The notes beneath the pieces are model-generated. The model was given only the letters and a program-made list of their open reading frames with translations. It had not been told where the DNA came from and searched no databases. DNA of 64,000 bases, taken from Sphingorhabdus lacus. GTDB lineage: Bacteria > Pseudomonadota > Alphaproteobacteria > Sphingomonadales > Sphingomonadaceae. Made by a program: the position numbers and the translations under genes. Location: contig NZ_CP035733.1 of NCBI RefSeq assembly GCF_009768975.1, positions 2,834,001 to 2,898,000 on the forward strand. Reading direction: 5' to 3'. Shown here piece after piece: positions 27,738-44,662 of the stretch (the stretch's first letter is position 1; each line of letters opens with the position of its first letter).

Positions 27738-28963
27738 TGTTGTTGCGTCATACTCTTTGGGCGACCTGCACGGTTGCGGGCTTACTTTCATCAGGCGCGG
27801 CCTACGCTGACCCTGTCAGCAAAACCGCGCCATTGGTGTCGGATCAGCTTCCTGAATTCGAGTCCAAGGGGTTGGACATTGGCGGCTTCCGTCTCATGCC
27901 GGACGTTGAGTATATCATCTATGCAGATGATAATGTGTACGCTGCGCCGACCGGCACACAGGCCGACGCAGCCTTCATTATAACGGGTGGTTTGGAAGCC
28001 AAAGGTCGTGTTGGCAGCATCGATCTGACGGCGACGGCGAAGACCCGCATCCGGCGCTATGATAAACTAACCACAGAAAACTCCGAAGGCGGCGAGGTTT
28101 TAATTGGATTGGGCTGGCAACCAAAAGAGAGCCAAAAATTCGGCCTTTCGGGAGGTTGGCGTCGCGTCGTTGAAGAGCGTGGTGATCCTGAAGCCCTGCA
28201 ATTGACGACGACAGGCCCACGTCTGTTGAATATCTTCGAAGCCGAAGGGAAGTTTAGCCACCAAGGTGGCGTGATGTTGATTGCTTCCGACGTCGCCTGG
28301 CGGAAATATGACTTTCTTGGACCGGTAAACGATCGCCGTGATTTCACCTCGCAATTCGGCTCGGTCACGCTTGGCCGCAGCATTGGGAGCCGTTTTTACG
28401 GGACCGCAACCGCTTTCATAACCAATCGTGATTTCCGTCTGCCTACTCCTGCGGGATTAAGCCAAGATGAAACGACGGTTGGCGGCCGCTTGGGCATCGC
28501 GACAAAGGAACGCGGCATTATTGAAGGCCGCGCTTCAATCGGTTTGTTCAAGTTGAACCCAGCTGATCCTTTGCAGAAGAGCCGGACCGGCGTCTCGACG
28601 GACATTTCGATGACATATCGCCCGCAGCAGCGCACGGCGATCACCTTGAACGTGTTTTCGGGCGACGTTGCGACTTTCAGGCTTGGGGCTGTGGCACGTG
28701 CCGACACGACGGCCCAGCTCAGTGTTCAGCAGGAAATCCGCCACAATCTTTACGCGACTGCAGCGGTGTCTTATTTGAGAGCCGAATTCATAGGTTCGGG
28801 TGACCTTGAAAAAGCGATCAGCCCGCGCGTTGAGGTTGAGTGGCTTGCCAGCAAGCGGATCTCGATTGCTGGCTATGTCAGCTATACCGATCGCACTAGT
28901 AATATCGCGGAAGAAAATTTTGATCGTGCGCGCGGCGGCGTTTCGTTCCGGTTGCGCTTCTAA
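27737..28963 (+). CDS. outer-membrane beta-barrel protein of the EPS locus
   Basis: 408 residues. A signal peptide (about 22 residues, ending AYA) precedes alternating hydrophobic and polar strands with many aromatic residues, ending in SFRLRF as expected for a BamA-recognised barrel. It looks like the BBP2/GelF-type barrels that accompany short poly_export proteins in Sphingomonas EPS loci. It probably helps EPS cross the outer membrane. Its ATG shares one base with the TAA of the preceding gene, so the two are coupled. The earlier GTG at 27728 lacks a ribosome-binding site of its own. Confidence 0.72.
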   Translation: MLLRHTLWATCTVAGLLSSGAAYADPVSKTAPLVSDQLPEFESKGLDIGGFRLMPDVEYIIYADDNVYAAPTGTQADAAFIITGGLEAKGRVGSIDLTATAKTRIRRYDKLTTENSEGGEVLIGLGWQPKESQKFGLSGGWRRVVEERGDPEALQLTTTGPRLLNIFEAEGKFSHQGGVMLIASDVAWRKYDFLGPVNDRRDFTSQFGSVTLGRSIGSRFYGTATAFITNRDFRLPTPAGLSQDETTVGGRLGIATKERGIIEGRASIGLFKLNPADPLQKSRTGVSTDISMTYRPQQRTAITLNVFSGDVATFRLGAVARADTTAQLSVQQEIRHNLYATAAVSYLRAEFIGSGDLEKAISPRVEVEWLASKRISIAGYVSYTDRTSNIAEENFDRARGGVSFRLRF

Positions 28964-28980
28964 AACAAAAGCGCGCAGTT

Positions 28981-30126
28981 CTATCCCGCAGAAAGATTGC
29001 GGTAGATTTGCGTGATTTTGGCGATGTGGGTTTCTTCGGAAAAGCGCGCTTTGGCGCTTTCCTTTGCCCGCGATGTCATCTCGGCCAATGCGGCTTTATT
29101 GTTCAAAGTGTCTAATGCCGCGCGGGCCATCGCAGCGGCGTTGTCCGGTTCGACGAGCGCGCCCAATCCCGCAAGAATGGCTTCCGGATTGCCGCCCGAT
29201 CGTGTTGCAATGACGGGCGTTTCTATGAGCATCGCCTCGACCAGTGTTCGCCCTAAGGGCTCGCTGACAGCCGTTACCAAGAGCAGATCTACAGCTGCTA
29301 TCCAGTCAACCCCAGGTGACCGATAGCCCATGATATGAACCACGCCTGCAACGTCTGGCTCCTGCATCCGGGCACGCATAGCCGTTTCGAGTTCTGGATA
29401 GGTTGTTTCGCCAAACAGAACGCCCACGACCGGTCGATCCTGCATCGCGCGTAGCTCGGCGACGGCATTCATAAATTCCAAAGGGCGCTTACGATCAATG
29501 AAGCTACCAAAATAGCCACATATGATGGTGTCTTCACGCGCCCCTAATTCCGTCAAAAGACGCTGACGCATCGCGGTTCGGTCGGCTTTGACATCCACAT
29601 CGAACGGGCTAAAAACAACCTGCGCACCCTGCCGCGCCTTGGATGGACGCATTCCGGACAGCGAGAATTCCGATACCGCTACAATCTGGTCGGCAACGAA
29701 CGGGGCCAAATAGCGCAACCCCTTGGCATAGGGGTCAGCGCGATGGTGCCATAGCAATTGGCAACCCGCCCGCTTCGCCGCGAACGCCCATGTGGCGTGC
29801 GTGCGCCCGTCATTGCTATGAACGATCGTGCTGCCGATCTCCCGAAGCAATGCGGCCCGGCGCCCAATTCCTGTAAATGTGGATGCGAATTTCGAAACAC
29901 TGAACGCGCGCCCGACGGCAAAGCTTTTGCGCGGAGGTGCGGGGTCTGGGCGCTGCTCGAACCCGGCGAAATGCTCTGCCAGACGACCGTTCGGATTTTC
30001 CAATATGATCACTGGTCGGTAGACCTCGGGATCAAGACCCTTCAGCAATCCCAGCAAGGAATGATGGCTACCCCCAAGGCTATCGCCCGCCATCGGGTAG
30101 GCAATTGTAACGCTTCCAGATTTCAT
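28981..30126 (-). CDS. glycosyltransferase, GT4-like
   Basis: 381 residues. The N terminus (AYPMAGDSLGGSHHSLLGLLKGL) is a GT4 acceptor-side Rossmann domain with a GGS loop. The C-terminal domain has GYFGSFIDRKRPLEFMNA and EPLGRTLVEAMLIETPVIAT with the E-x7-E signature. It is convergent with the barrel gene (17-base gap). It stands 23 bases downstream of the beta-helix gene at 30150-31505, on the same strand, so the two may share a transcript. The sugar donor is unknown. Confidence 0.82.
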   Translation of the reverse strand: MKSGSVTIAYPMAGDSLGGSHHSLLGLLKGLDPEVYRPVIILENPNGRLAEHFAGFEQRPDPAPPRKSFAVGRAFSVSKFASTFTGIGRRAALLREIGSTIVHSNDGRTHATWAFAAKRAGCQLLWHHRADPYAKGLRYLAPFVADQIVAVSEFSLSGMRPSKARQGAQVVFSPFDVDVKADRTAMRQRLLTELGAREDTIICGYFGSFIDRKRPLEFMNAVAELRAMQDRPVVGVLFGETTYPELETAMRARMQEPDVAGVVHIMGYRSPGVDWIAAVDLLLVTAVSEPLGRTLVEAMLIETPVIATRSGGNPEAILAGLGALVEPDNAAAMARAALDTLNNKAALAEMTSRAKESAKARFSEETHIAKITQIYRNLSAG

Positions 30127-30149: not shown

Positions 30150-31505
30150 TCAGCGCACAAGCTGTTTATGGAGATAATCTAGAAAGGCATCCAAATTGGT
30201 TACGCCATCCCGATTGCCGTCAAGCCACGAGTCGGCGGCCCCGACCTTTGCACCATTTTTGACTTCCCAGCGGTCATCCATGCCGTCCCGGTCGGCGTCC
30301 GGATAAGGGGTCCCTGCAAATATCGCGGGTATGGATCCTGGAAGCATCACGATCTGTCCGGTTCTGTTGATGACATCATTGACGACCTCGGCATCAATGG
30401 CGTCCCGTGGCTTGGCGCCCGATTTCGCCAGAACAGATGAATAAGCTACTCCGGCGGCCATCGGCTTGACGGTCAAGGGGCAGGGCGGCGTATTCCGCCG
30501 AGCAACCGCGACGGAGGCATCAATATCGGTAAATGCGCCGAAAAACTGATTGTCATGAAGATAGATCGCCGAGTTTCCGGTACTTTCGACAGTTTGTCGG
30601 ATGATTCCTACAGCGCCATCGGTCGTGTCAATGCCGGCTTTGAAACTGTTGCCGACAATTGATACCGGCGTGCCTCCGTAGGTTTCCCACACTTCGGCAA
30701 ATTCGGACACGGCATTGTAGAACACATTGTTGACGACTTCGACGCAAGAAGACGGCTTGAAATTGATGTCCGGATTCCGGTCACCATTATGCGCGCAGAT
30801 GTTTCCGATAAAACTGAAATTCTGCGCATTTTTCGGATCACTTCCCAAAAGCGCGCATTTGTCATGCTTCGGGATGCCGTATGAAAAGATCGAATTGCTG
30901 ACGGTTATGAAGTCATTATTCCCATAGCCGTTGATGATTTCATCGCGGGCCCAGCTCGCGCTTACCTGGTCGATCACAACATATTTGCTGTTCTCTATCG
31001 TTATCGAATCTTCGGATTCCTTCTCCCCACCAATTCGATCATTGCGGATCCGGACATGGCGGACGATCACGTCATTGGTGTTCTTGATCAGCAGAGGCGT
31101 GCGGGACTCGGCGCTACCGTCATGGGCGATCGTAACGCCTCCGCCCGGTGCTGTTTGGCCAGCAATTGTGATGTACGGGTTTTTGATAACGGGTGGCGTG
31201 CCATCGAAACGGAATATACCGCCAACGCGAAATACGCAGGTGCGTGGCCCAACGGCTTCAACACATGCGCGCAAGGAACCGGCGACATTATCGGCTGTCG
31301 TGGTTACTTGGATAATCTTGCCCTTGAATCCGCCCAGAGCGGCAGCACCATAGCCTACAGCACCAGGAAACGCCTTTGATCTGGCGGCGGGTCCTGTCGT
31401 TCCTTTTGTCTGGCCGTCTACGGGCGAGCAAGACGAAAATGCGACAGTCGTTGAGAGCAGAAGACCAAAAAAGGTAATGGCGCCATTACGTGAAAGCGGG
31501 GACAT
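30150..31505 (-). CDS. secreted pectate-lyase-like beta-helix protein, divergent paralog (4)
   Basis: 451 residues from ATG 31505, preceded by AAGGATG; an ATG 39 bases further upstream has no such site. It has a signal peptide with a Cys near its end (FSSCSP), so it may be a lipoprotein, though the box is weak. The core repeats the family pattern: GFKGKIIQVTTTADNVAGSLRAC, TIAGQTAPGGG, and DSITIEN...VIDQVSASWARDE. It is much less similar to the other three. The C terminus keeps a calcium-loop pair (DADRDGMDD, DGNRDGVTNLDAF). It is divergent from virB1 across about 145 bases, so the two could be coregulated. Confidence 0.8.
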   Translation of the reverse strand: MSPLSRNGAITFFGLLLSTTVAFSSCSPVDGQTKGTTGPAARSKAFPGAVGYGAAALGGFKGKIIQVTTTADNVAGSLRACVEAVGPRTCVFRVGGIFRFDGTPPVIKNPYITIAGQTAPGGGVTIAHDGSAESRTPLLIKNTNDVIVRHVRIRNDRIGGEKESEDSITIENSKYVVIDQVSASWARDEIINGYGNNDFITVSNSIFSYGIPKHDKCALLGSDPKNAQNFSFIGNICAHNGDRNPDINFKPSSCVEVVNNVFYNAVSEFAEVWETYGGTPVSIVGNSFKAGIDTTDGAVGIIRQTVESTGNSAIYLHDNQFFGAFTDIDASVAVARRNTPPCPLTVKPMAAGVAYSSVLAKSGAKPRDAIDAEVVNDVINRTGQIVMLPGSIPAIFAGTPYPDADRDGMDDRWEVKNGAKVGAADSWLDGNRDGVTNLDAFLDYLHKQLVR

Positions 31506-31649
31506 GATTTCATCCTTGTAGAATCCGACACAGCGACCTTGCACTGCTTATGTTTCAATGTGAATTGGCCAAAGGGCTTACCCCTAATTACCACCCAAGA
31601 GATCGCCGTTCTAGCAGCCATGAAGCTTGCCAATTTTGTGGAAAGTTTT

Positions 31650-32282
31650 ATGCCGCCAAGGATGATTTTTCATTTTCGCACACTTCGGTATCCCTTTAGA
31701 TTCGTGATGTTTTCAGGCATTGCGCTCTGCGCGCACGCCGGTTTGTCGGCACAAGTGTATGAAATTGGGACAGATAGTACTCCTAGGTTGTTAACCACGT
31801 TAACGCAGCCCGACGCGGCGAATTTTGCGTCGCGAATCGCCCCCGAGAATCGCATCGCATACTCCGCGTCCGTGACGCGCAAGATCATGCCGCCGCAATG
31901 GAAAATTATTGTGACGACGATTTCGGAACAGCATGACATTGATCCGCTGCTGTTCGAAGCCCTGATTTGGCAGGAAAGCCGTTGGAACCCTTCGGCCCGG
32001 TCACCCAAAGGTGCCGTCGGCCTTACACAACTCATGCCTGGGACGGCCGCCAATCTTGGTGTGAACCCTTATGACGCGCTGGCCAATCTTGAGGGCGGCG
32101 CACGCTATCTGAAGGCTATGTTGACTCAGTTTAACGGCGATACCCGCCTAGCGCTGGCAGCCTATAATGCAGGGCCTGCGCGCGTGGCGCAATATCAAGG
32201 GGTACCGCCTTTTGCGGAAACACAAAATTATGTCGAAGCAATCCGGCAACGGGTTGCGTGGGGTGGCGCACTGGAGGAATGA
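31650..32282 (+). CDS. virB1: VirB1-like lytic transglycosylase
   Basis: About 210 residues. A signal peptide (FRFVMFSGIALCAHAGLSA) precedes a soluble lytic transglycosylase domain. The catalytic Glu is in LIWQESRWNP, followed by SPKGAVGLTQLMPGTA, GGARYL and LALAAYNAG, all SLT motifs. It would open peptidoglycan for assembly of the secretion channel. The start is uncertain: GGAAAG lies 4 bases before ATG 31650, while ATG 31662 and 31620 are alternatives. It is the first gene of the type IV secretion operon, followed 4 bases later by the pilin gene. Flagellar or general housekeeping use is less likely given the context. Confidence 0.83.
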   Translation: MPPRMIFHFRTLRYPFRFVMFSGIALCAHAGLSAQVYEIGTDSTPRLLTTLTQPDAANFASRIAPENRIAYSASVTRKIMPPQWKIIVTTISEQHDIDPLLFEALIWQESRWNPSARSPKGAVGLTQLMPGTAANLGVNPYDALANLEGGARYLKAMLTQFNGDTRLALAAYNAGPARVAQYQGVPPFAETQNYVEAIRQRVAWGGALEE

Positions 32283-32286
32283 ATAT

Positions 32287-32592
32287 ATGAGAAAGTTGAT
32301 TAAACGGATAGCAATCACCGGGCCGATGGCTCTGCTGTCCGCACCGGCCTTTGCCCAACAGGACCCCGCAGGTAGCGGTCCTATCGTCCGCGCTGCACAA
32401 TGGCTGCAGGGCACATTGATGGGCAATGTGGCGACGGCCGCTGCCGTCGTTGCGGTTGCTGCCGTTGGCTTCATGATGCTGACGGGCCGCATGAACTGGC
32501 GCTATGGTATGACTGTTGTGCTGGGATGCTTCATTTTGTTCGGCGCAGTCGCAATCGTGTCCGGCATCCAGTCTGCTGCAGGCGCAGGTTAA
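32287..32592 (+). CDS. virB2: VirB2-like type IV secretion pilin
   Basis: 101 residues with a signal peptide ending in AFA-QQ at about residue 23, then two hydrophobic segments (about 47-65 and 75-93) separated by a short basic loop (GRMNWRYG). This is the TrbC/VirB2 pilin layout. The pilin or channel subunit would be inserted in the inner membrane and used for the conduit. GGAGGA precedes the ATG. It lies between virB1 and virB3, as in the Agrobacterium order. Confidence 0.85.
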   Translation: MRKLIKRIAITGPMALLSAPAFAQQDPAGSGPIVRAAQWLQGTLMGNVATAAAVVAVAAVGFMMLTGRMNWRYGMTVVLGCFILFGAVAIVSGIQSAAGAG

Positions 32593-32595
32593 GCT

Positions 32596-32877
32596 GTGGC
32601 ATTAAGCAAGGCGCCCGTTTTTACATCGCTTACGCGGCCGCATATGTTTGCGGGCGTCACCTATAGTTTTTTTGTCATCAATGGCGTGATTTCAACCGAA
32701 GCATTCCTGATAACCCGTAGTTTTTGGGCATTGGGAGTCGCACTGATCGTCCACGTAATTGGATATCTGGCGTGTCTTCGGGAGCCCCGTTTTTTCGATT
32801 TGTGGATCACAAAAGTGTCCCGGACACCACGTGTGAAAAATTGGAAGCGCTGGGGATGCAACAGTTACGCACCGTGA
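32596..32877 (+). CDS. virB3: VirB3-like inner-membrane protein
   Basis: 93 residues, GTG start 3 bases after virB2. The SLTRPHMFAGVTY segment is the conserved VirB3/TrbD N-terminal motif. Two membrane segments follow (about residues 20-35 and 43-60), then a basic C terminus. VirB3 associates with the VirB4 ATPase, which is encoded next; in some systems the two are fused, but here they are separate. Confidence 0.85.
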   Translation: MALSKAPVFTSLTRPHMFAGVTYSFFVINGVISTEAFLITRSFWALGVALIVHVIGYLACLREPRFFDLWITKVSRTPRVKNWKRWGCNSYAP

Positions 32878-32887
32878 ATTGGAATAA

Positions 32888-35305
32888 ATGATGGCTTGGC
32901 GGGGACCCGCAGCATGGGGCAAATATGAGCAGCGCGCGGGCGAACGCCTGCCGTATCGACGGCATGTCGATGACGTGACGCTGCAGCTGCGTGATGGCAG
33001 CTTGATGCGCGTGCTCCATTTAAATGGCCTGCCATTTGAAACGGAAGATGCGGACCATCTCAACCATACGCAGGCCGTTCGCGAGACAATTTTGCGAAGC
33101 ACGCTGGATGCACGCTTCATTGTCTATCACCACGTCATACGACGTCGCGTGTCGGCGGAAATGCCTTCGCAATATACGGGCGCCTTTTCTGCGCATTTGC
33201 AAGAGAAGTGGTCGTCACGTCTCGCTAAGCGAACCTTGTTTGCCAATGAACTTTTCCTGACGGTTTTGCGCCGTCCGCCGCGTGGTAAAGTTGGCTTGCT
33301 CGAAAGAATGCGCCGCCGGTTTAACCGCAACCATTTTGACGCGGTTTTTCAGGAGGAGTTGCGTGACCTCGACAGCGCAGTGATTGGCCTGAGCGCAGCG
33401 TTGCAACAATATGGCGTCCGCGATCTTGGTTGTTATGAAGGCGACGGCGGAACCTGTTCGGAACTGCTCGAGTTTTTGGCCGCTCTGTACAATGGTGAAA
33501 TGCGCGCGGTTTTGAAACCTGACGACGATGTCGATTTGGGGAATCATATTCCTTACAAGCGTGTCAGTTTTGGCTTGGACACGATCGAATATCGCGGCGC
33601 TGGTGGTTCCGAATTTGCGGCGATGATTTCTGTCAAAGACTATCCCGGTGAAACACGCGTCGGTATCCTCGATGATGTTCTGCGCCTGCCGCACGAATTT
33701 GCACTGACCGAAAGCTTCGCACCCGTCGACCGTCAGGTTGCCAAGGAGAGGATCGATCTGTCGCTGCGCCGATTGAAGGCAACCGATGAAGACGTGGCAG
33801 GCGAACGACGCGAAATGCTTGCCGCAAAGGACCAACTGATCGGAGGGCAGATTGGTTTTGGGATGCACCATCTGTCGCTTTCGGTTCGTGCAGACGACAT
33901 AACATCCTTGGATAAGGCAGCGGCAAAGGCAGTTGCGGCACTTGCGGATTTCGGTTCCATCGGTGTTCGCGAAGATGTGAATCTGGAACCTGCCTTTTGG
34001 GCGCAGTTTCCCGGCAACGAAATGTATATTGCCCGCGGAGCGATGATCTCAACTATCAATGCGGCAAGCTTCATCTCAATGCATGGCTTTCCGATGGGGC
34101 AACCCAAGGGGAACCATTGGGGCGACGCAATTACCATTTTCGAAACCACCAGCGCGACACCCTATTTCTTCAATTTCCACGAAGGCGACTTGGGCCATTT
34201 CAGTATTATCGGGCCATCCGGATCCGGTAAAACGGTGGTGATGAATTTCCTCACCGCGCAGGCGCAGAAGCTTGAGCCGCGGACCATCCTGTTCGACAAG
34301 GATCGCGGTGCCGAGATTTTCTTGCGGTCACTGGGCGGGAACTATGTCGAATTGCGCCCAGGCATTTCGACCGGATTTAATCCGCTGCGTCTTCCTGACA
34401 GTCCGGTGAACCGTGCATTTTTGCGCGACTGGTTGGCATGTCTTCTGGCCCCGGAGCAGGGGGGCATGTCACCCGCCGATGAAACGCTCATCGCGTCGGC
34501 TGTCGACGCAAGTTTTGAACAGGGCGAACATCTGCGCACCTTGCGCCATCTCGGCGAATTGCTTGGCGGAACGAAACGGCCCGAAGAGGGTGATTTGCAA
34601 TCCCGGTTGCGTCCCTGGCTGGACCGCAGCGACAGAGGCTGGGTGTTCGACAATGATCAGGACGGCCTTGATCTTTCGAACCGCATCATAGGCTTTGATA
34701 TGACAGCCCTGCTTGATCAGCCTGCTATTCGTACAGCGGTCATGATGTACCTCTTCCACCGTGTCGATGAACGACTGGATGGAAGTCCCGCGATGATCAT
34801 GATCGATGAGGGCTGGAAAGTACTGGACGATCCGGTTTTTGCAGCACGGCTACGCGATTGGTTGAAGACATTGCGTAAACGCAATGCGATTGTCGGTTTC
34901 GGCACGCAGAGCGCGCGGGACGCCCTAGATAGCAAGGTATCATCGGCGATTGTCGAGCAAACCGCGACGCAGATATTCATGCCCAACAGCCGCGCAAAGC
35001 CCGAGGATTATTGCGGTGGTTTTGGTTTGAGCGACCATGAGTTGTCGCTCGTTCGAACTCTGCCTGTTCACAGCCGGTGCTTCTTGATCCGGAAACCCAA
35101 TCACAGCGTGGTTGTCCGTCTTGATTTGGGCCAGATGCCTGACATTCTGACTATACTGTCCGGCCGCGAGTCCAGCGTGCGGGCGCTGGACAGTTTACGC
35201 GAAAGCTACGGCGACAAGCCTGAAAAATGGTATGAGCATCTGACCAAGACGCCGTGGCCGGGTGATCCGAACATCTTGCTCGATTTGTCGGAATTCGCCC
35301 AATGA
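32888..35305 (+). CDS. virB4: VirB4-like secretion ATPase
   Basis: 805 residues, the usual VirB4 length. The Walker A loop is GPSGSGKT at about residues 441-448 and the Walker B is MIMIDEGWK at about 635-643. The CagE/TrbE N-terminal domain and a C-terminal RecA-like domain with TQSARDALDSK are recognisable. It powers pilus or channel assembly at the inner membrane. Its end overlaps the VirB6 gene by 4 bases (ATGA). Two consecutive ATG codons open the frame. Confidence 0.93.
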   Translation: MMAWRGPAAWGKYEQRAGERLPYRRHVDDVTLQLRDGSLMRVLHLNGLPFETEDADHLNHTQAVRETILRSTLDARFIVYHHVIRRRVSAEMPSQYTGAFSAHLQEKWSSRLAKRTLFANELFLTVLRRPPRGKVGLLERMRRRFNRNHFDAVFQEELRDLDSAVIGLSAALQQYGVRDLGCYEGDGGTCSELLEFLAALYNGEMRAVLKPDDDVDLGNHIPYKRVSFGLDTIEYRGAGGSEFAAMISVKDYPGETRVGILDDVLRLPHEFALTESFAPVDRQVAKERIDLSLRRLKATDEDVAGERREMLAAKDQLIGGQIGFGMHHLSLSVRADDITSLDKAAAKAVAALADFGSIGVREDVNLEPAFWAQFPGNEMYIARGAMISTINAASFISMHGFPMGQPKGNHWGDAITIFETTSATPYFFNFHEGDLGHFSIIGPSGSGKTVVMNFLTAQAQKLEPRTILFDKDRGAEIFLRSLGGNYVELRPGISTGFNPLRLPDSPVNRAFLRDWLACLLAPEQGGMSPADETLIASAVDASFEQGEHLRTLRHLGELLGGTKRPEEGDLQSRLRPWLDRSDRGWVFDNDQDGLDLSNRIIGFDMTALLDQPAIRTAVMMYLFHRVDERLDGSPAMIMIDEGWKVLDDPVFAARLRDWLKTLRKRNAIVGFGTQSARDALDSKVSSAIVEQTATQIFMPNSRAKPEDYCGGFGLSDHELSLVRTLPVHSRCFLIRKPNHSVVVRLDLGQMPDILTILSGRESSVRALDSLRESYGDKPEKWYEHLTKTPWPGDPNILLDLSEFAQ

Positions 35306-36516
35306 GCCAGTTCTGCCAACCGACTGGCTTGAAAGAGCAAGGGATAACCGCCGGGCTGCAGTATATTGACTGCAACAGCGAGCGTATCATTGAATATGCG
35401 TTCAACCGCTTTTTCGGCCCCGGCGGCGCGCTTGGTTGGGCGCTGACAACTATACTGACCATATATGTGGCGTTAATTGCGTTCCGCCTTCTCAGCGGTC
35501 GTGGTCGTCTTTCGGCCTTGCCTCCGCGCATTCTTGGCCTCGGGCTTATCCTGACATTTGCGACCAGTTGGATTGGATATCAAAGCTTCGTCCTCAATAT
35601 CGCGTTGGGCGCTCCGGAAGAACTGGCCAAGATACTTTTGAACACCAAAGGCAGCGCGACCTATATGTTCTCGCGGCAGTTGGACATCATGTTCCAGGCA
35701 ATTGCACAAGTTGCCTTGCAATCGCGCACCGCAGGCGTTGGACCGGAGGGTGCGGCCGGCGTCATGTCGGCAGAAGGCGACTTGCTCTGGCTCGGCGCTT
35801 TGATGCTTTTGCTGGGCACGGTTGGTGTCCTCATAGTCGCGCGCATGGCCTTGGCCCTGATGCTGGCATTGGGACCCATTTTCATCATATTGGCCTTGTT
35901 TTCTGGTACACGTGGGTTGTTTGTCGGCTGGATGAAAGCTGTCGTCATGCTCGCCGTGACGCCCTTGTTCGCGGTTCTGCTGGGTGGCGGAACGCTGGCG
36001 CTGATCCGACCCTTGGTGGTGGAATTGGCTAAGTTGAACGGTGAGATTGATATGCGCATCGCGGTGAACATATTTCTCGCGGCGTCCGTTCATGTTGCGC
36101 TGATGCTGATGGCCATCAAATTATCGACAACACTTGTCTCCGGCTGGCGCCTTCCCTGGGCAGAACCAGAGGCTGGCGCATCAAGTTCCGACAACGCAAA
36201 TGCTGCGAGTGCCGCTGCCGCCGTTGCGGCATCCTCCATGGCTGCATCGGCGCCCGCATCATCGGTAGAGTCCGGGCCAGATCAACGGACGCAATCGATC
36301 CTGCGTGCGGTCGATCAATCGGCTATGCCATCGCCGGCATCAGAGACATCGGAACGCGCGGGCTTCGCCCGAAACTTTTCCGTTAATACCGGCGACATGG
36401 TGAGCAGTGTAGGCACGGGTAAACGGGAATCGAATGATGTTACACAAGCACTGGGTCGCAAATTCCGACCCGCAACTATTGGCGCTGTGCGTTTAAAGCG
36501 GGAAAGTACGGTATGA
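35302..36516 (+). CDS. virB6: VirB6/TrbL-like polytopic membrane protein
   Basis: 404 residues. About six hydrophobic segments lie between residues 45 and 290, with the TrbL/VirB6 region VARMALALMLALGPIFIILALF near residue 190. The last 110 residues or so are an Ala/Ser-rich low-complexity tail with a basic end. VirB6 forms part of the inner-membrane channel. There is no room for virB5 between it and virB4. It overlaps virB9 by 4 bases, skipping the positions where virB7 and virB8 normally stand. Confidence 0.86.
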   Translation: MSQFCQPTGLKEQGITAGLQYIDCNSERIIEYAFNRFFGPGGALGWALTTILTIYVALIAFRLLSGRGRLSALPPRILGLGLILTFATSWIGYQSFVLNIALGAPEELAKILLNTKGSATYMFSRQLDIMFQAIAQVALQSRTAGVGPEGAAGVMSAEGDLLWLGALMLLLGTVGVLIVARMALALMLALGPIFIILALFSGTRGLFVGWMKAVVMLAVTPLFAVLLGGGTLALIRPLVVELAKLNGEIDMRIAVNIFLAASVHVALMLMAIKLSTTLVSGWRLPWAEPEAGASSSDNANAASAAAAVAASSMAASAPASSVESGPDQRTQSILRAVDQSAMPSPASETSERAGFARNFSVNTGDMVSSVGTGKRESNDVTQALGRKFRPATIGAVRLKRESTV

Positions 36517-37283
36517 GCAAGTTGCGACGCCCTGTTTTTCTGATGGCGCTACTCGTTTTTGTCGCCTTCGGCCTTCAGCCGTCCTTTGCAATGCAAAGCG
36601 CTGATAGTCGCGTCGTTGAACGCCATTACTCGCCAGAGACAGTCTATCCCATCGCAGGCGTTATGGGCATTCAGACCGCGATATTATTTGGGGAAGAAGA
36701 GCGGATTGAAAATATCGCCGTTGGCGATGGTTCCAATTGGCAGATTACGCCGAACAAACGTGCGAACATTCTGTTCATCAAGCCTATCGCAACAAAGAAG
36801 GTCACCAATCTGACCGTGGTCACGGACCGTCGAACCTATTTGTTCGAGCTGAATTCGACCAATCCGAAGGCAGTGCCCATTTACACGATGCGCTTCATCT
36901 ATCCGCCCGATCCGGTTGTATCGGAAGTTCCGGACCTGACCGGTATTCCACCTGAAGCGCTCAGTGAGACGGCGACCGACCCGTCACCTAAGATCAATTT
37001 AAGCTGGGCCAAGAGTGGGAAGGAAAGCCTATGGCCAAGTGAAATATTCGATGATGGCACTTTGACCTATCTGCGTTGGCCCAAAGCAGTTTCTCCGCCA
37101 GCGATCTATTCGATTAGCGCCGACGGCACGGAAAGCCTTGTGAATCAACTCGCGCAGAATGATTATTTTGTTATTGATTTCGTACCCAGCGCATTGATGC
37201 TTCGTTTGGGTAAGGCCAGAGCGCGGTTGGATAGGATAACCTTACCCGATCCTGTTCAGCCTAAAATGGAGAACGGGAATTGA
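36513..37283 (+). CDS. virB9: VirB9/CagX-like outer-membrane core protein
   Basis: 256 residues with a signal peptide of about 26 residues (ending SFA). The N-terminal domain shows the CagX pattern (VYPIAGVMGIQTAILF, ERIENIAVGDGSNWQI) and TNLTVVTDRRTYLFEL. The C-terminal domain has LRWPKAVSPPAIYSI and DYFVIDFVPSALMLRLG, the part that normally binds VirB7. No VirB7 lipoprotein gene is next to it, so the core complex may use another lipoprotein or none. Confidence 0.9.
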   Translation: MSKLRRPVFLMALLVFVAFGLQPSFAMQSADSRVVERHYSPETVYPIAGVMGIQTAILFGEEERIENIAVGDGSNWQITPNKRANILFIKPIATKKVTNLTVVTDRRTYLFELNSTNPKAVPIYTMRFIYPPDPVVSEVPDLTGIPPEALSETATDPSPKINLSWAKSGKESLWPSEIFDDGTLTYLRWPKAVSPPAIYSISADGTESLVNQLAQNDYFVIDFVPSALMLRLGKARARLDRITLPDPVQPKMENGN

Positions 37284-38428
37284 AAACGATCACGAAAGGC
37301 ATCCATGATGAGCGTGATCCAAGGACTACGCTTGATGATGAAAGCCTCGAAGAGGCATCGACCAACCGTTTTCCGGTAGTCGCAAACCAGAAGCGCGGCA
37401 AAGACGGCTTTGCGATTTGGGGCGGCATGTTTGGTGCCGTGGCGTTAGGCGCGCTGACTCTCTATTTAATGTCCGAGGCGCGACAGACCGCAAGCCCCCA
37501 ACCAAAACAGGACGAAGAAATGCCGGCAATTGCCGAGCTTCAGCCGCCAAATGTTCCGCAAAATGCAGTGACGCTGGTTGATCCATTGGGTAATTCGGTC
37601 ATGGGTGTGCAGCCAAGTACGGTGCCCGGTGGCCAGAGTGTGCCTCCAGTTACTCCGCCGCCAATGGCAACTGTTCTGCCGTCCCCTTCAACAAATTATG
37701 AACCTAGAACGACCGATCCGCGCTCCCCGGCGCTTATATTGGACGATTATGCCGACCGTTTGCAGCGACGCAATGCCAGCCGCCAGGCATCGGCCGGCGA
37801 CGTGCAAACCACGCCAATCGGTTTGAACAATGACGAACTTTTCGGAATGCGCGCTGGCGAAGGCGGAAGCAGCAGTGCGACGCCCATGGCGAACCCGGCT
37901 GCTACGATCGTTGCAGGGACTCTCATTCCGGCGGTTCTGGAAACAGCGATAAACTCCGACTTGCCTGGATATACCCGTGCTTTCGTCAGTCAGGATGTCC
38001 GAAGTTTTGACAACAAGACTGTCCTGTTACCGCGCGGGTCGCGCTTGATCGGGCAATATAAAAGCGGCGTCGCCGCCGGGCAGAAGCGTGCCTATGTCAT
38101 TTGGACGCGCGCGATACGCCCCGATGGAATATCCATCGACCTGGGTTCACCCGGAACGGACGGGGCCGGGCAAACCGGGCTGCCCGGTAAAGTGAACAGC
38201 CATTTCTTCCAGCGTTTTGGTGCTGCGATTCTGTTGTCAGTGGTGGGTGCGCTTGGCTCGCGATCAAATGATGGCGTGGTGATCGCATCCGGCACCAGCG
38301 CGGCGTCTGTGGCGGCGCAGAGTAGTGCCAACATACCACCTACTATCCGCGTGGTGCAGGGACAGGCTGTTAAGATCTTTGTGGCGCGGGATTTGGACTT
38401 TACTGACGCCCTGGGTGCCAATCTTTGA
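37280..38428 (+). CDS. virB10: VirB10/TrbI-like core protein, TTG start
   Basis: 382 residues. An N-terminal cytoplasmic part is followed by a single membrane segment at about residues 50-66, a Pro-rich periplasmic linker, and the TrbI beta-barrel domain. The latter includes GTLIPAVLETAINSD, LLPRGSRLIGQY and SHFFQRFGAAILLSVVG, the outer-membrane antenna helices. VirB10 spans both membranes and gates the channel. The start is a TTG overlapping the virB9 stop (TTGA), preceded by GGAGAACGGGA; no ATG closer to the stop fits. Confidence 0.9.
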   Translation: MKTITKGIHDERDPRTTLDDESLEEASTNRFPVVANQKRGKDGFAIWGGMFGAVALGALTLYLMSEARQTASPQPKQDEEMPAIAELQPPNVPQNAVTLVDPLGNSVMGVQPSTVPGGQSVPPVTPPPMATVLPSPSTNYEPRTTDPRSPALILDDYADRLQRRNASRQASAGDVQTTPIGLNNDELFGMRAGEGGSSSATPMANPAATIVAGTLIPAVLETAINSDLPGYTRAFVSQDVRSFDNKTVLLPRGSRLIGQYKSGVAAGQKRAYVIWTRAIRPDGISIDLGSPGTDGAGQTGLPGKVNSHFFQRFGAAILLSVVGALGSRSNDGVVIASGTSAASVAAQSSANIPPTIRVVQGQAVKIFVARDLDFTDALGANL

Positions 38429-39414
38429 GCGTTCGGCCGGTCACACCTGAGGACAGCGGCGAGAAGGTCGCGCAGTCTTATCTCGAGGCCTATTTTGCGC
38501 CACTTCAGCCGTGGCTGAACCAGGATGATGTAACCGAAATACTGATCAACCGCCCCGGCGAAATATGGGTGGAGCGCGCTGGCCCCGGCAAAATGGAATG
38601 CGCACTTGTGCCGCAAATTGATAGCCGATTGATTGAACGACTGGCCACACAAATTGCCCGTGTGAACAACCAGGGCGTGAACCGGGAGAACCCTCTGCTA
38701 TCCGCCGTGCTCGAAGACGGTGCCCGTGTGCAGGTTATCGCGCCGTCAGCAACGCGCGGCGACTGGGTCATCGCCATCCGCCGCCACAAGATCAAGGCGA
38801 TGCCGCTCTCGGCCTTTTCCACGAAGCTTGCCCCGGCCGCCGAGCCGGCGGTCATGCTGGCCAAAAGCGACCCGATCGCCTTTCTGCAGCAGGCTATCCA
38901 TGCCCGTAAAACCATCCTGATCAGCGGCGGTACATCGACGGGTAAAACAAGCTTCCTCAATGCGCTCCTCGCCGAAGTGCCCATGTCCGAGCGTATCGTT
39001 CTGGTGGAAGACACGCCGGAAATACGCTTGTCGCACCCCAACTCGGTTGGCTTGGTTGCGATGAAGGGCGATATGGGCGTCGCGCGCATCAACACAAATG
39101 ACCTGTTGCAGGCCGCGTTACGCCTGCGGCCCGACCGTATCGTGCTGGGTGAGTTGCGCGGCAGCGAATCCGTCAGCTTTCTGCGCGCAATCAACACCGG
39201 TCATCCCGGAAGCTTTTCTACTATCCACGCCAACTCACCACGTGGTGCCATCGAGCAGTTGGCGTTGATGGTGATGCAATCGGGAATCGGGCTGAGTCGT
39301 CAGGATGTGATCGAATATGCCCGCTTTGTGATCGATATTGTGGTCCAATTAGAGCGTCAGGAAGGCAAAAGGGGTATCAGTTCCATTGTGATGACGCGAG
39401 ACCTGGATTTGTAG
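38425..39414 (+). CDS. virB11: VirB11-like secretion ATPase, TTG start
   Basis: 329 residues. Walker A GGTSTGKTS at about residues 168-176; the Asp box (VLVEDTPEI) near 190; Walker B and the LRPDRIVLGELRG motif near 235; and the His box (TGHPGSFSTIHAN) near 260. It is a hexameric traffic ATPase of the GSPII_E family at the inner membrane. Start is TTG in a TTGA overlap with virB10, the same arrangement as the virB9/virB10 junction. It is the last gene of the operon; no virD4 follows. Confidence 0.92.
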   Translation: MSVRPVTPEDSGEKVAQSYLEAYFAPLQPWLNQDDVTEILINRPGEIWVERAGPGKMECALVPQIDSRLIERLATQIARVNNQGVNRENPLLSAVLEDGARVQVIAPSATRGDWVIAIRRHKIKAMPLSAFSTKLAPAAEPAVMLAKSDPIAFLQQAIHARKTILISGGTSTGKTSFLNALLAEVPMSERIVLVEDTPEIRLSHPNSVGLVAMKGDMGVARINTNDLLQAALRLRPDRIVLGELRGSESVSFLRAINTGHPGSFSTIHANSPRGAIEQLALMVMQSGIGLSRQDVIEYARFVIDIVVQLERQEGKRGISSIVMTRDLDL

Positions 39415-39574
39415 GTTCTGCTTGGCCGTTTGGGTTAAGTGGCGGAATGATACTGACTTTGTTGTAAGCGGCTCTCTATGCTCCAAAAATGGCGTTAATC
39501 TGCCATTCATGAGCATTTTCAACTGACCGATAATAAACAACGTGTGGCCGACGCGCTGTTTCTTTCACAGTTTG

Positions 39575-39582
39575 TTAACCAT
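39575..39582 (+). promoter_or_regulatory. CtrA-like half-site TTAACCAT
   Basis: Exact TTAACCAT in the 263-base gap between virB11 and the beta-helix lipoprotein gene, 96 bases before the chosen start at 39678. It is a member of the intergenic set listed in the findings. Confidence 0.42.
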
Positions 39583-39677
39583 AATCGCCTACTTCTAATT
39601 AGGTAACTTCGCATACTCGATGCTTACAAAGAAACAAAGGCACGGGTCCAATCCATATGGCCAGAGGTCGCAAACCA

Positions 39678-41429
39678 ATGCAACGTCGCGGACGCATCGT
39701 CGTCGGTTCTTCTACACTTGTCTTCGCTCTCGCTCTGTCGGGTTGCGGCGGCGGTGGTGCTGGTGGCGGTAGCGGTAGCGCACCACCATCGAGCTCGACA
39801 CCTCCCCCTCCTGTTGTAGTGGTCCCGCCCACGCCTTCTCCGCCACCAGCGGAGGTACCGCCTCCGTCGCCTCCGCCGACAACAACGCCGCCGCCGTCAC
39901 CACCTCCGACGCCGGCTCCGCCGCCCGCGCCTCCTCCACCACCACCACCACCACCACCTCCTCCTCCGGTGCCGGTACCACCGCCACCGCCACCGCCGGC
40001 ACCCCCACCTCCGCCTCCTCCAACGACGGCAGGCGTCTATAGCCCATCCAAGTTACCGGACGGACGGCAGCGTGCATTTCCGACCGCGCAAGGATTTGGT
40101 GCTGCCGCAACAGGTGGCCGTGGCGGACGTGTGATTCCCGTGACTACACTCGCCGATTCGGGCGCAGGTTCGCTGCGCGAATGCATGATGGCGACTGGTG
40201 CACGCACATGCGTTTTCCGCGTATCGGGCACTATTGTTCTCAATTCACAGATCAAGCCAACGTCCGGCAATTTGACCGTTGCCGGTCAGACTGCGCCGGG
40301 TGGCGGGATCGCGATCCGCAATGATCCGTCAAACCTGACCGGATCGCCCATTTATCTGTCGCAGCCAAATAACATTATCCGCCACATCCGGATCCGTCCC
40401 GGCGCAACCAGCGGGACAAAGCAGGACACTACCGACAGTATCACGGTTGATGCAGGTGCGGATTATACCATCATCGACCATGTCTCTCTATCTTGGGCGA
40501 CCGACGAGCCATTCAATTCGACCAAGGCTTCGGCAAATATCACCGTGCAATGGTCACTTGTCTATGAAGGTCTGAGCAAATCGACACATATTCAGGGCGA
40601 ACATGCCAAGGGAATGTTTGTCGAAGGCAGCAATATTACAGTGCATCATGTGCTGGTCGCGCATGCGACTGACCGCATGCCCAATGCGGGTGTCGGCAGC
40701 CGCGTCGATTTTGTGAATATTGTGAGCTACAATATGAAGGAAAAGGCGCACCAATATTTCTCGATGCTGCAAAAGCAGGGCAGCGCCACCAGCGGTTTGA
40801 CCCGTCAGGCGAATATTGTGGGCAACTGGGTATCCATGGGCCCCAATTCGATGCGCGGTACGTCGATTTACGGCGGGAATTACGACGAGCAATATTCGAC
40901 CAATCCGGGATTTGCCCAATTTTACCTGTCGGGCAATATTGACGGGCGTCGCCAGTCGACGAGTCTGGATGATCGCCTCTTCTTCGATCCGGCCGATTGG
41001 CGTTATATCCAAAGCAGCCCCATCGGGTTGTTGTCGGTCGAACTCTTCTCCTCTGCCGCACAAGGTGTGCGCGACGTCACCTCTTTCGCAGGCGCCTTTC
41101 CACGGGACATTTCCGACCAGCGCGTGCTGCTTGATTTCCTCAACTGCCGCGGTTCGATTATTGATGACCCGAGCCAAGTTGGCGGTTGGCCATCATTGGC
41201 TACAGGCACGCCCTATGCGGATGCGGACGGCGATGGCATGGACGATGTTTGGGAAGCTTCCCGCGGCGTGAGCAGTGGCACGGCGGATGCCGATGGCGAT
41301 GGTTACACCAATTTGGAAGAATTTCTGAACGAATTGGCGGGTGACCAAGACTCTGCGGGCAACCTGATCAATCGTGTAGGTGCAGGCTCAGGTGTTGTAC
41401 CTGCTCCGAACTGCGGTATCGCTGTCTGA
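39678..41429 (+). CDS. pectate-lyase-like beta-helix lipoprotein with long Pro-rich linker (paralog 2)
   Basis: 583 residues. A lipoprotein signal (LALSGCGGGG) puts the mature N terminus at a Cys near residue 20. A Gly/Ser patch and about 80 residues of Pro-rich sequence follow, then the beta-helix domain with the same signature residues as paralogs 1 and 3 (GGRGGRVIPVTTLADSGAGS, DHVSLSWATDE). The C terminus has calcium loops DADGDGMDD and DADGDGYTNLEEF. The linker would hold the domain away from the membrane, either through the periplasm or on the surface. AGAGG upstream supports ATG 39678; ATG 39657 is an alternative. It follows virB11 by 263 bases in the same direction. Confidence 0.83.
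   Translation: MQRRGRIVVGSSTLVFALALSGCGGGGAGGGSGSAPPSSSTPPPPVVVVPPTPSPPPAEVPPPSPPPTTTPPPSPPPTPAPPPAPPPPPPPPPPPPPVPVPPPPPPPAPPPPPPPTTAGVYSPSKLPDGRQRAFPTAQGFGAAATGGRGGRVIPVTTLADSGAGSLRECMMATGARTCVFRVSGTIVLNSQIKPTSGNLTVAGQTAPGGGIAIRNDPSNLTGSPIYLSQPNNIIRHIRIRPGATSGTKQDTTDSITVDAGADYTIIDHVSLSWATDEPFNSTKASANITVQWSLVYEGLSKSTHIQGEHAKGMFVEGSNITVHHVLVAHATDRMPNAGVGSRVDFVNIVSYNMKEKAHQYFSMLQKQGSATSGLTRQANIVGNWVSMGPNSMRGTSIYGGNYDEQYSTNPGFAQFYLSGNIDGRRQSTSLDDRLFFDPADWRYIQSSPIGLLSVELFSSAAQGVRDVTSFAGAFPRDISDQRVLLDFLNCRGSIIDDPSQVGGWPSLATGTPYADADGDGMDDVWEASRGVSSGTADADGDGYTNLEEFLNELAGDQDSAGNLINRVGAGSGVVPAPNCGIAV
39782..40023 (+). repeat. low-complexity CCN-repeat tract encoding the Pro-rich linker
   Basis: A run of CCA/CCT/CCG/CCC codons broken by Ser, Thr, Val and Ala codons. 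The longest uninterrupted poly-Pro stretch is 13 residues. Triplet-based slippage would change linker length in frame. The paralogs at 12099 and 41478 lack this tract. Confidence 0.85.
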
Positions 41430-41477
41430 CTAATTCCAGGGCGGGGACACGCATGTCTCTTCCAGCCACATCGAGCG

Positions 41478-43049
41478 TCATAAGGGTATGATGTTGCAAT
41501 TTACTGGCGGTATCGGACTGGTGCCTGCGCCGACACGGCTAATGAAATTGCCTGCGCTATCCTGATCCCCGGCCATCTCATTTAAAAACTCTTCAAGGTT
41601 GCTGTAGCCGTCGCCATCGGCGTCTGCAGTGCCATTGGTGATGTTGCGGCTCTTTTCCCAATTGTCGTCCATCCCGTCCGCGTCAGCATCCACATAGGGT
41701 ACCCCGCCCGCCAGAACGGGCCAGCCGCCAACCTGCGCCGGATGGTCGATTATGGCACCCATGCATGATGTAAAGCCTTGCAGGACACGTCTGTCTGCGC
41801 TGTCGCGGGGGAATGCCCCCGCAAAAGCCATAATGTCGCGGACAGCTTGATCTGCCGGACTGAAGATCTGAGCGCTCAATGCTCCTATGGGGTTTGTTTG
41901 AACATATTTCCAATCGGCGGGATCTAGAAACAGCTTCTCGTCGAGTGTCGGGCTTTTTCGGCGTCCGTCTATATTCTGGTAGAGATAGAATTTTGCAAAG
42001 CCCGGGTTTGTCGAAAACTGTTCGTCATAATTGCCGCCATAAATACGCAAACCCCGAAGCGAATTGGGCCCCATGGATACCCAGTTGCCGATGGCATTGA
42101 CTTGCCGGGTCAAGCCGCTTGTCGCTGCGCTCTGCTTCTGCTTCATGGAGAAGTATTGATGTGCTTTCTCGCGCATATTGTATGAAATCAGATTTACGAA
42201 GTCGACGCGGCTGCCGACACCTGCATTGGGCATACGGTCGGTGGCATGCGCCATGAAGACATGGTGTGCGGTAATATTATCGCCCTCCAGGAACATAGCT
42301 TTCGCATGTTCACCGGAAATATGGGTCGATTTGCTTAGCCCTTCATAAACCAGCGACCATTGGATGGTGACATTGGAAGCGGTCTTGGTTGTGTTGAATG
42401 GCTCGTCGGTGGCCCAAGACAGCGAGACATGGTCGATGATCGTGTGTGGTGCACCGGCATCGATAGTGATGCTGTCCGTGGTATCCTGCTTTGTACCGCT
42501 GGTGGGGCCGGGACGGATCCGGATGTGGCGGACAATATTATGGGGCTTATTGAAGTAGAAGGGCGATCCCGTCAGGTTGGACGGATGGTTCTTGATGGCG
42601 ATACCGCCGCCCGGGGCGGTTTGGCCAGCAATGGTCAGATTGCCGGAGGTGGGTTTGATCTGCCGCAACAGTTCAATCGTGCCAGCCACACGAAACACGC
42701 ACGTGCGCGGTCCGGTTGCCATCATGCATTCGCGTAAAGACCCCGCGCCGGAATCGGCAAGCGTCGTGACAGGGATCACCCGTCCGCCCCGCCCACCTAC
42801 AGATGCCGCGCCAAAACCTTCGGCACTTGGAAAGGCGCGTTGCGCCCCCGATGGTAGTTTGGACGGGTTATATGTTTGCCCGAAAACGTCGGCCGGAATT
42901 TGCGTGCAAATAATCGCGGTGATGGTGATCAATAACGTAAACAGTTTTTCGGAACGGCCGGGCCCGCGCACCGGTTGAGACGGCAACATCTCGGACGAGA
43001 CCAATGTGTGTTGAGTGCCGGCGGAACGACGGCAAGTGCGACGTGACAT
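41478..43049 (-). CDS. secreted pectate-lyase-like beta-helix protein (paralog 3)
   Basis: 523 residues. A basic N-terminal extension of about 35 residues precedes a hydrophobic signal core (LFTLLITITAIICTQIPADVFG). The mature part begins YNPSKLPSGAQRAF, and the core and calcium-loop C terminus closely match paralogs 1 and 2. GGAG lies 8 bases before ATG 43049, which supports this start. The ATG at 42989 would give a more ordinary signal length but has no good site. It is convergent with paralog 2 (48-base gap), so the pair probably arose by inverted duplication. Upstream are two copies of the ATAGTAAC motif. Activity is inferred only from fold family. Confidence 0.84.
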   Translation of the reverse strand: MSRRTCRRSAGTQHTLVSSEMLPSQPVRGPGRSEKLFTLLITITAIICTQIPADVFGQTYNPSKLPSGAQRAFPSAEGFGAASVGGRGGRVIPVTTLADSGAGSLRECMMATGPRTCVFRVAGTIELLRQIKPTSGNLTIAGQTAPGGGIAIKNHPSNLTGSPFYFNKPHNIVRHIRIRPGPTSGTKQDTTDSITIDAGAPHTIIDHVSLSWATDEPFNTTKTASNVTIQWSLVYEGLSKSTHISGEHAKAMFLEGDNITAHHVFMAHATDRMPNAGVGSRVDFVNLISYNMREKAHQYFSMKQKQSAATSGLTRQVNAIGNWVSMGPNSLRGLRIYGGNYDEQFSTNPGFAKFYLYQNIDGRRKSPTLDEKLFLDPADWKYVQTNPIGALSAQIFSPADQAVRDIMAFAGAFPRDSADRRVLQGFTSCMGAIIDHPAQVGGWPVLAGGVPYVDADADGMDDNWEKSRNITNGTADADGDGYSNLEEFLNEMAGDQDSAGNFISRVGAGTSPIPPVNCNIIPL

Positions 43050-43780: not shown

Positions 43781-43850
43781 TAAGAAACTTACCAAAAAGT
43801 AAAGTTTACGTGGGTCGCAAACGTGAAATCTTCTGGACAAGGTACGTTTG

Positions 43851-44576
43851 ATGACCGATGCAATTTTATCCGCCGTAGTAGTAGGCAAGAATTCTCTTGC
43901 TCGTGAAGGCCTCCGCCGCATTCTAGCCGAAGAAAATTTTTCGGTACAGGCTTCCGTTGAAAGCGGGACATCGTTCCTGCTCGCGAATGCCGAGGATGAC
44001 TCTCCAAATCTGTTCATTCTGGACAACAGCACGACCGATCACCTTGAAAGTGAATTGGAAGCGCTGAACGCCAGCTTCCCGAAGTCGCGCAAAGTCGTGC
44101 TCTCGGACCAGTTTGACCTTGAAGAAGTTGTCGACGCCTTCAAATATGGCGTTGATGGCTATATCGTCAAGGAAATCAGCCTGGATGCCTTGATGAAGTC
44201 GCTCCGCCTCGTTGCCATGGGCGAAAAGGTAATGCCGAGCCAGTTGGCGCAGCATCTTTCCGGCATGGAAGAAAAAAGCCAGGTTCCCCAATTTGCGCGT
44301 AACCCCGATGTTACGCGTATCCTGTCGGAGCGTGAAATCACCACCTTGCGTTATCTGCTTGTTGGCCATGCCAACAAGGTTATCGCACGTCGCCTCGAAA
44401 TCAGCGAAGCGACTGTGAAGGTCTATGTCAAAGCGATCTTGCGTAAGCTGCGGGTCAGCAATCGCACGCAAGCTGCGATTTGGGCTTTCAACAATGGCGT
44501 TCAGGTTGTGGCCGACGACGTCAAGGAAATGGATGACGAAATGAACTACGACGACGTCCAGGTCGCTGCAGAATAA
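43851..44576 (+). CDS. LuxR/NarL-family response regulator with degenerate receiver
   Basis: 241 residues: an N-terminal receiver-like domain (about 1-120), a linker, and a C-terminal LuxR helix-turn-helix (about 160-220; LSEREITTLRYLL, NKVIARRLEISEATVKVYVKAILRKL). The phospho-acceptor position D58 (LFILDN), the Ser after beta-4 (VVLSD) and the Lys of GYIVKE are kept. The acidic pair at the end of beta-1, normally DD or DE, is replaced by GKN (residues 12-14). Without it Mg2+ binding and normal phosphorylation are unlikely, so it may act constitutively or bind a ligand. AAGG lies 8 bases before ATG 43851. There is no histidine kinase nearby. It is well placed to regulate the EPS and beta-helix genes. 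Confidence 0.88.
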   Translation: MTDAILSAVVVGKNSLAREGLRRILAEENFSVQASVESGTSFLLANAEDDSPNLFILDNSTTDHLESELEALNASFPKSRKVVLSDQFDLEEVVDAFKYGVDGYIVKEISLDALMKSLRLVAMGEKVMPSQLAQHLSGMEEKSQVPQFARNPDVTRILSEREITTLRYLLVGHANKVIARRLEISEATVKVYVKAILRKLRVSNRTQAAIWAFNNGVQVVADDVKEMDDEMNYDDVQVAAE

Positions 44577-44657: not shown

Positions 44658-44662
44658 CTGTG

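Follow-up and report, generated by a model that had tools for sequence, protein, structure and literature searches.

A compact VirB operon without VirB8 in Sphingorhabdus lacus and its relatives in the Sphingomonadales

The virB operon and its missing parts

The stretch analysed here (the window) comprises 64,000 nucleotides, positions 2834001-2898000, of the complete 3.46-Mb chromosome of Sphingorhabdus lacus. At ~31.6-39.4 kb it contains eight contiguous virB genes (virB1-2-3-4-6-9-10-11) in an uninterrupted run, a compact set of genes for a type IV secretion system (T4SS). Its closest named relatives, judged at this locus, are Sphingorhabdus contaminans, S. profundilacus and a metagenome-assembled genome labelled Sphingopyxis.

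All eight identities rest on Pfam matches well above cut-off, and all eight genes lie on the forward strand. The lytic transglycosylase gene virB1 (31539-32282; PF01464, SLT, 1.8e-24) is given as its longest frame; the true start is probably ~100 bases inside this frame, as judged by eye and from relatives of 220 aa. It is followed by the pilin gene virB2 (32287-32592; PF04956, TrbC, 3.2e-19, scored on the longer frame 32167-32592), virB3 (32596-32877; PF05101, 3.4e-26) and the ATPase gene virB4 (32888-35305; PF03135, CagE_TrbE_VirB, 7.4e-43). Downstream lie virB6 (35302-36516; PF04610, TrbL, 1.5e-28), virB9 (36513-37283; PF03524, CagX, 6.7e-48), virB10 (37280-38428; PF03743, TrbI, 1.7e-51) and a second ATPase gene, virB11 (38425-39414; T2SSE, 3.2e-34; TIGR02788 above cut-off). 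NCBIfam agrees for VirB3, VirB4, VirB6, VirB9, VirB10 and VirB11, with the family cut-off reached by VirB3, VirB4 and VirB11 only. VirB4 scores 722 bits with TIGR00929 (cut-off 643), which marks it as a signature ATPase of the VirB type (MPF-T). The outer-membrane core is represented by VirB9 and VirB10, both far above the cut-offs of PF03524 and PF03743. Walker A motifs, read from the translations, are intact in both ATPases (GPSGSGKT in VirB4, GGTSTGKT in VirB11).

The first four genes are separated by 4 bp (virB1/virB2), 3 bp (virB2/virB3) and 10 bp (virB3/virB4), and 4-bp overlaps join virB4 to virB6, virB6 to virB9, virB9 to virB10 and virB10 to virB11. The original prediction for this locus had described the same gene order and tight spacing, with no room inside the operon for virB5, virB7 or virB8 and no VirD4-like gene in the window. 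The Pfam identities and measured gaps and overlaps bear this out, as do the positions of the VirD4-family matches given below. In a comparison with orthologues at a related locus (L033; virB1 left out), six virB genes have a finite dS, and their dN/dS values lie at 0.017-0.10; these are approximate given that five of the six dS values exceed 1.6. The virB4 gene is 96% identical to its L033 orthologue. The virB genes of the window are maintained under purifying selection. In a search of plasmids for VirB10 all 1009 records were below 60% identity, and no close plasmid relative was found.

It had also been proposed that the missing parts be sought in the rest of the genome. No match to VirB8 (PF04335) was found in the whole S. 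lacus genome, in a search that works, since it was positive in 18 of 61 genomes. VirB5 (PF07996) likewise gave no match in the S. lacus genome; 7 of the 61 genomes matched, 6 of them over the cut-off. VirD4 (PF02534) gave two partial matches, near 1.93 and 1.97 Mb; both are ~0.9 Mb outside the window, one in a TraC of the F type and the other in a protein resembling TraD. They are confined to an F-type conjugation region (L066 and L067, 1.922-1.980 Mb), where a TrwC relaxase and a TraD-like coupling protein (PF10412, 1e-156) accompany TraC, TraN and a TraW-like protein. Therefore, conjugation in S. lacus is probably served by a separate machine of its own, of the F type. Neither a VirD4 nor a relaxase is linked to the virB cluster; the TrwC relaxase lies in the F-type region, relaxases not having been searched for genome-wide. 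Between the virB genes there is no convincing small open reading frame (ORF) with a lipobox that might encode a VirB7-like protein, as judged by a rule-based ORF scan with no VirB7 family test. VirB6 was considered as a stand-in for VirB8 on the grounds of its length and rejected, as it falls in the same length class in VirB8-bearing relatives (frames 401-403 in L044, L046 and L051).

Spread and neighbours of compact clusters

The same combination of genes occurs a second time in the S. lacus genome, at ~1.613-1.621 Mb (L038). At the level of the order, a compact-VirB4 profile matched 202 of 397 Sphingomonadales genomes from 43 of 81 genera (E<=1e-100), a count that also takes in VirB8-bearing relatives (e.g. 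the lower-scoring G001). In a class-level sample the same profile matched 17 of 387 genomes at 1e-150, five of which were Sphingomonadales of the window's family. Eight of the other twelve were examined: three loci are compact (L108-L110), one has VirB8 (L111) and four are different (L112-L115). Sixty regions were taken from the order and class searches for genus spread among the matches listed, rather than at random; the remaining loci are those of the genus and seven others from relatives of the window locus.

A hidden Markov model (HMM) of VirB8 gave no convincing match in 52 loci from the best-scoring VirB4 matches (all at least 1229 bits), one of which (L096) ends after virB4. The sole match outside the four VirB8-bearing loci was to a 249-bp ORF in L123 (0.0078), which is taken as chance. 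When rebuilt without L044, L046 and L051 the model still recovered all three (3.4e-36 to 8.5e-32), with 0.012 as the best match in any compact locus. Spacing tells the same story. Of the 57 loci that allowed virB6 to be paired with virB9, 53 have the two genes -215 to +5 bp apart, which leaves no room for virB8; the remaining four (L044, L046, L051 and L111) have 655-781 bp between them, with virB8 inside. Pfam confirms VirB8 in L044 and L051. Pairing worked in 32 of the 52 loci, and the other 20 were judged by the HMM alone. In L110, from another order, virB9 begins where virB6 ends.

A VirB4 tree was built by a quick method, with long branches flagged; 74 of its rows are compact, the four distant rows (L112-L115) being left out of this count. 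Seventy three of the compact rows lie together on one side of a branch (support 96). L110 groups with three VirB8-bearing rows (support 96), apart from the other compact rows, and VirB8 may therefore have been lost more than once. A compact VirB machine without VirB8 and VirB5 (and without VirB7, as far as is visible), and with no linked VirD4, is widespread and maintained in the Sphingomonadales.

The genes beside these clusters differ. By neighbour, 35 of the 74 compact tree rows have a lipoprotein of a family designated c30 next to a TonB receptor, and 14 have DUF1800, mostly with DUF1501. Rarer neighbours are beta-helix proteins of the type found in the window (4), ferritin-like proteins with Tat-type N-termini (2), a YHYH pair (1) and a phosphoesterase (1). 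A lipoprotein rule was passed by 29 of 241 ORFs lying no more than 2.2 kb from the clusters versus 2 of 176 beyond 4 kb; it overlooks some signals that inspection reveals, and spurious frames may be present among the ORFs. A neighbour passing the rule is present at 25 of 74 loci, which are phylogenetically non-independent; this sample, with ten loci left out beforehand and L036 in, differs slightly from the 74 tree rows. The excess of lipoproteins near virB is no more than suggestive, most matches being orthologues of two families.

DUF1800 and DUF1501 adjoin the second compact copy in S. lacus. DUF1800 occurs in 37 places in the 61 genomes, sorted by frame length into 18 long forms (one of them cut short where its contig stops), 17 short forms and 2 unclassified fragments. 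Set against mapped VirB4 positions, 16 of the 18 long forms lie within 7 kb of VirB4 (the exceptions are G013 and G015, the latter on separate contigs), compared with none of the 17 short forms. DUF1800 is found divergent on the left of the compact cluster (L038 type and L110), on the left on the same strand (L040) or on the right (L036, L101 and L058), and in L110 its lipoprotein signal is clear and is accompanied by a Gly/Ser linker. Within the genus, DUF1800 and its virB cluster are one unit; at greater distance the two are linked in L036, L058, L101 and L110, with differing layouts. Order-wide co-occurrence of long DUF1800 and compact virB was rejected as proof of a link, as it probably reflects clades where both are common.

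The c30 family was tried as a further beta-helix cargo, being repetitive and beta-rich by eye, and was rejected, the family being widespread without virB. None of 26 members had a Pfam match over cut-off, the PDB gave no sequence match, and the only profile match to the beta-helix family of the window covered 9 signal-peptide columns. An AlphaFold model made from two sequences had a pLDDT of 28.

Some of the loci outside the compact set have features of their own. Two VirB8-bearing relatives (L044 and L046) are flanked left and right by RHS-repeat proteins and have an additional virB2-like gene downstream of virB11; the RHS proteins may be substrates of these machines. At the four distant loci (L112-L115) no VirB9, VirB10 or VirB11 is labelled beside VirB4. 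L113 and L114 each have two VirB6-like genes, of up to 941 aa, and L112 has a row of long unlabelled ORFs.

Beta-helix genes and the polysaccharide cluster

The virB operon of the window is bordered by genes of a beta-helix family resembling pectate lyases. BH1 (30150-31505, reverse strand), divergent from virB1, is a PelZ-like lipoprotein with a lipobox seen by eye. BH2 (39678-41429, forward strand) starts 263 bp after virB11 and has a lipobox by rule and a Gly/Ser/Pro linker. BH3 (41478-43049, reverse strand) is PelZ-like and has a Sec-type N-terminus; signal peptides and lipoboxes were called by rule and by eye throughout. A promoter and terminator scan of 39.35-43.3 kb gave 4 and 7 sites, versus 2.9 and 4.1 in shuffles, and is uninformative. 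The original prediction had recognised these three flanking genes, with their starts (31505 for BH1, 39678 for BH2) and export signals, all of which stand. They are not, however, the only members of the family here. A profile of it (A3) found a fourth copy, BH4 (12099-13574, reverse strand), inside a polysaccharide cluster.

BH4 is 76% identical to both BH3 and BH2, and BH2 is 37% identical to BH1 in the A3 alignment. With PF00544, BH1 scores 24.6 bits (cut-off 24) and BH3 17 bits; BH4 has no match, and BH2 has no match to any Pfam family. Both BH1 and BH3, the two that were run, resemble PelZ (3.7e-37 and 8.6e-39), at 128-134 bits, far below the PelZ cut-off of 840. BH3 also matches a pectate lyase in the PDB (9buj, 2.3e-21) and VexL (6fi2, 1.5e-10), a Vi-polysaccharide lyase; the likeness is to PL1-type lyases.

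The left part of the polysaccharide cluster (13815-30126) has Pfam matches to glycosyltransferases, two sulfotransferases, Polysacc_synt_3, Polysacc_synt_2, DegT, SLBB polysaccharide export and BBP2. The right part (43848-53447) matches a LuxR-type regulator, an epimerase, ATP-grasp, a phosphoesterase, a Wzz-type kinase, a subtilase (Peptidase_S8, 50646-51908, forward strand) and a UDP-sugar dehydrogenase. Adjoining the cluster is a YadA-type trimeric autotransporter adhesin of 2781 aa with head and stalk repeats (3637-11982, forward strand). Given their homology and their arrangement within this cluster, BH1-4 are most likely polysaccharide lyases that cut or trim its sulfated polymer.

The original prediction had tied the beta-helix proteins specifically to secretion by the virB machine and had asked whether the linkage recurs in related genomes. 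At 1e-20, profile A3 matched 12 of the 61 genomes. Values of 1e-200 or better are restricted to four orthologous Sphingorhabdus loci, always with virB and the polysaccharide cluster, and the weaker matches in 8 further genomes lie away from the VirB4 genes mapped in the 61 relatives. The neighbouring BBP2 gene follows the same pattern (5 of 37 genomes), with strong matches in the same four genomes and a weak one in G009. A closer inspection of G009 (L142) revealed the order sulfotransferase, export gene, BBP2 and BH1 homologue (55% identity over 236 residues); no virB is in view up to the contig end, which falls within this homologue. The only T4SS found in this genome is the VirB8-bearing L051, on a different contig. 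The sole exception seen is L108, from another order, where a distant, partial BH3 homologue (19004-19801; 37% over 259 residues) lies beside GH43, ~6 kb to the left of the compact cluster. L108 leans the other way, but a linkage of beta-helix genes and virB as a general rule was rejected. With one orthologous locus, BH4 away from virB, a lyase-like family and a G009 homologue without virB in view, a beta-helix-specific secretion link is not supported.

Possible roles and known systems

As an explanation of the compact machine we weakly favour, above DNA uptake and a pilus role and at somewhat less than an even chance, the export in two steps of proteins that are periplasmic and often lipid-anchored. 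Sec or Tat would carry the substrates over the inner membrane, where they would often become lipid-anchored, and the VirB9/VirB10 outer-membrane channel would pick them up from the periplasm. Cycles of the VirB2/VirB6 stalk, driven by VirB4 and VirB11, would then push them to the cell surface. Because there is no VirD4, cytoplasmic substrates would have no known entry. R388-type machines have inner-membrane arches and a pilus tip, and both should be absent here because VirB8 and VirB5 are. Contact between VirB4 and VirB8 is described in print (PMC12857230). The channel, stalk and motors that remain may be enough in principle for outward movement of periplasmic proteins, as has been proposed for the Ptl system of Bordetella pertussis (PMC12857230). 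Candidate substrates would be the exported proteins encoded beside many copies, such as DUF1800/DUF1501 at the second S. lacus copy; at the window locus BH1 or BH2 is possible. The part of the original prediction that saw a secretion machine thus retains support from the genome-wide absence of VirB8 and VirB5, the lack of a linked VirD4, the intact ATPases and exported neighbours elsewhere, while its beta-helix specificity does not.

Several observations weigh against this export role. No labelled neighbour type was found at 17 of the 74 compact rows, and some of these (e.g. L083/L125 and L105) show cytoplasmic-looking neighbours only; two others of the 17, L108 (14027-14971) and L117 (4805-5857), from two orders, have nearby an intradiol-dioxygenase-like protein whose lipoprotein signal is of the RR type. 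Order-wide, long DUF1800 occurs in 66 of 397 genomes and, among the matches listed, is mostly not near VirB4; adjacency is seen there in G000, G006, G014 and G324, of which only G324 (L101) lies beyond the genus. The c30 family occurs in 292 of 397 genomes, some of which (e.g. G061) have no match to the compact-VirB4 profile among the matches listed, and in S. lacus it lies at 1.365 Mb, at least ~0.25 Mb away from either cluster. For the most part the neighbour signal reflects inherited synteny, and the link between c30 and virB looks like old synteny. It is also conceivable, at low odds, that VirB8 is present and unrecognised, or that an unrelated protein encoded at another site, or a portion of VirB6, takes its place. 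In the VirB systems studied VirB8 belongs to the inner-membrane complex (PMC12857230, PMC8402538), and PF04335 was the sole test for it in the S. lacus genome. We regard this as the least probable of the alternatives, as the 53 measured compact loci have no extra gene between virB6 and virB9, VirB6 is equally long in VirB8-bearing relatives, and the HMM that recovers held-out VirB8s finds nothing comparable in compact loci.

The machine might instead take up or exchange DNA, importing it in two steps like ComB of Helicobacter, for which VirD4 is unneeded. A DNA route has been proposed for seven of the genes in Citromicrobium (PMC3338782), DNA uptake or exchange is cited for Erythrobacter as a predicted role of alphaproteobacterial T4SSs (PMC4919336), and chromosomal presence across many genera fits such a housekeeping role. 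However, ComB keeps VirB8 and does without VirB11, the reverse of the compact machine (PMC12857230), and we consider this explanation rather unlikely. Much the same likelihood is given to an adhesive or short-pilus machine without translocation, like Trw of Bartonella, a precedent discussed in a review (PMC12857230). Retention of VirB2, VirB4, VirB6 and VirB11 with no linked VirD4 would suit it, but the genome has no VirB5 tip protein and the cluster a single virB2, whereas Trw has several copies of virB2 and virB5. Less likely than either is that BH1-3 are dedicated substrates reaching the surface through the virB machine. Their adjacency to virB is kept in four species, BH1 and BH2 have lipoprotein signals, and L108 has its distant homologue; against this, there is but one orthologous locus, BH4 is 17 kb off rather than beside virB, the locus is full of polysaccharide genes, the G009 homologue follows export genes with no virB in view, and lyases can exit by other routes. 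Returning to two-step export, a broader version of it is more doubtful than export itself: a T4SS clade without VirB8 that forms an eight-protein, VirD4-independent pump lifting Sec- or Tat-delivered, often lipid-anchored enzymes out of the periplasm to the surface, with the substrate gene swapped repeatedly between lineages (DUF1800/DUF1501, ferritin-like, phosphoesterase, YHYH and beta-helix). If these machines work, they offer a naturally reduced set in which to study why VirB8, VirB5 and VirB7 are needed, and a non-pathogen model of two-step secretion, which is discussed in a review for pertussis and Brucella.

Among the titles and abstracts listed in a search of the open-access literature, none concerned a VirB8-less sphingomonad VirB family or a link between DUF1800/DUF1501 and a T4SS. 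The gene set itself is already in print; its wide distribution, the consistent lack of VirB8 and the exported proteins beside it were not met in the titles, abstracts and passages covered. The 'incomplete virB operons' of Citromicrobium (virB2B3B4-virB6-virB9B10B11) have the same gene set as the window cluster except virB1 (PMC3338782). In Erythrobacter a T4SS copy is present in all 14 strains compared, is chromosomal and tracks the genome tree, and in five strains it adjoins a TonB-dependent transporter, like the c30 loci here (PMC4919336). The passages on these systems present an incomplete system or a DNA-exchange route, with no mention of a VirB8-less family, exported neighbours or cargo (PMC3338782, PMC4919336). 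ComB of Helicobacter pylori resembles the window cluster in being without VirD4 and VirB5; it has homologues of VirB6-10, and so VirB7 and VirB8, and is without VirB11 (PMC12857230), whereas the window cluster has VirB11 and is without VirB8. Ptl, to which the original prediction had compared the operon, is without VirD4 and VirB5, and its substrate reaches the periplasm via the general secretory pathway (PMC12857230). It has all VirB homologues except VirB1 and VirB5 (PMC8402538). The analogy is therefore apt for the absence of VirB5 and of a linked VirD4 and is otherwise imperfect: Ptl keeps VirB7 and VirB8 and is without VirB1, whereas in the window cluster VirB1 is present and VirB8 absent.

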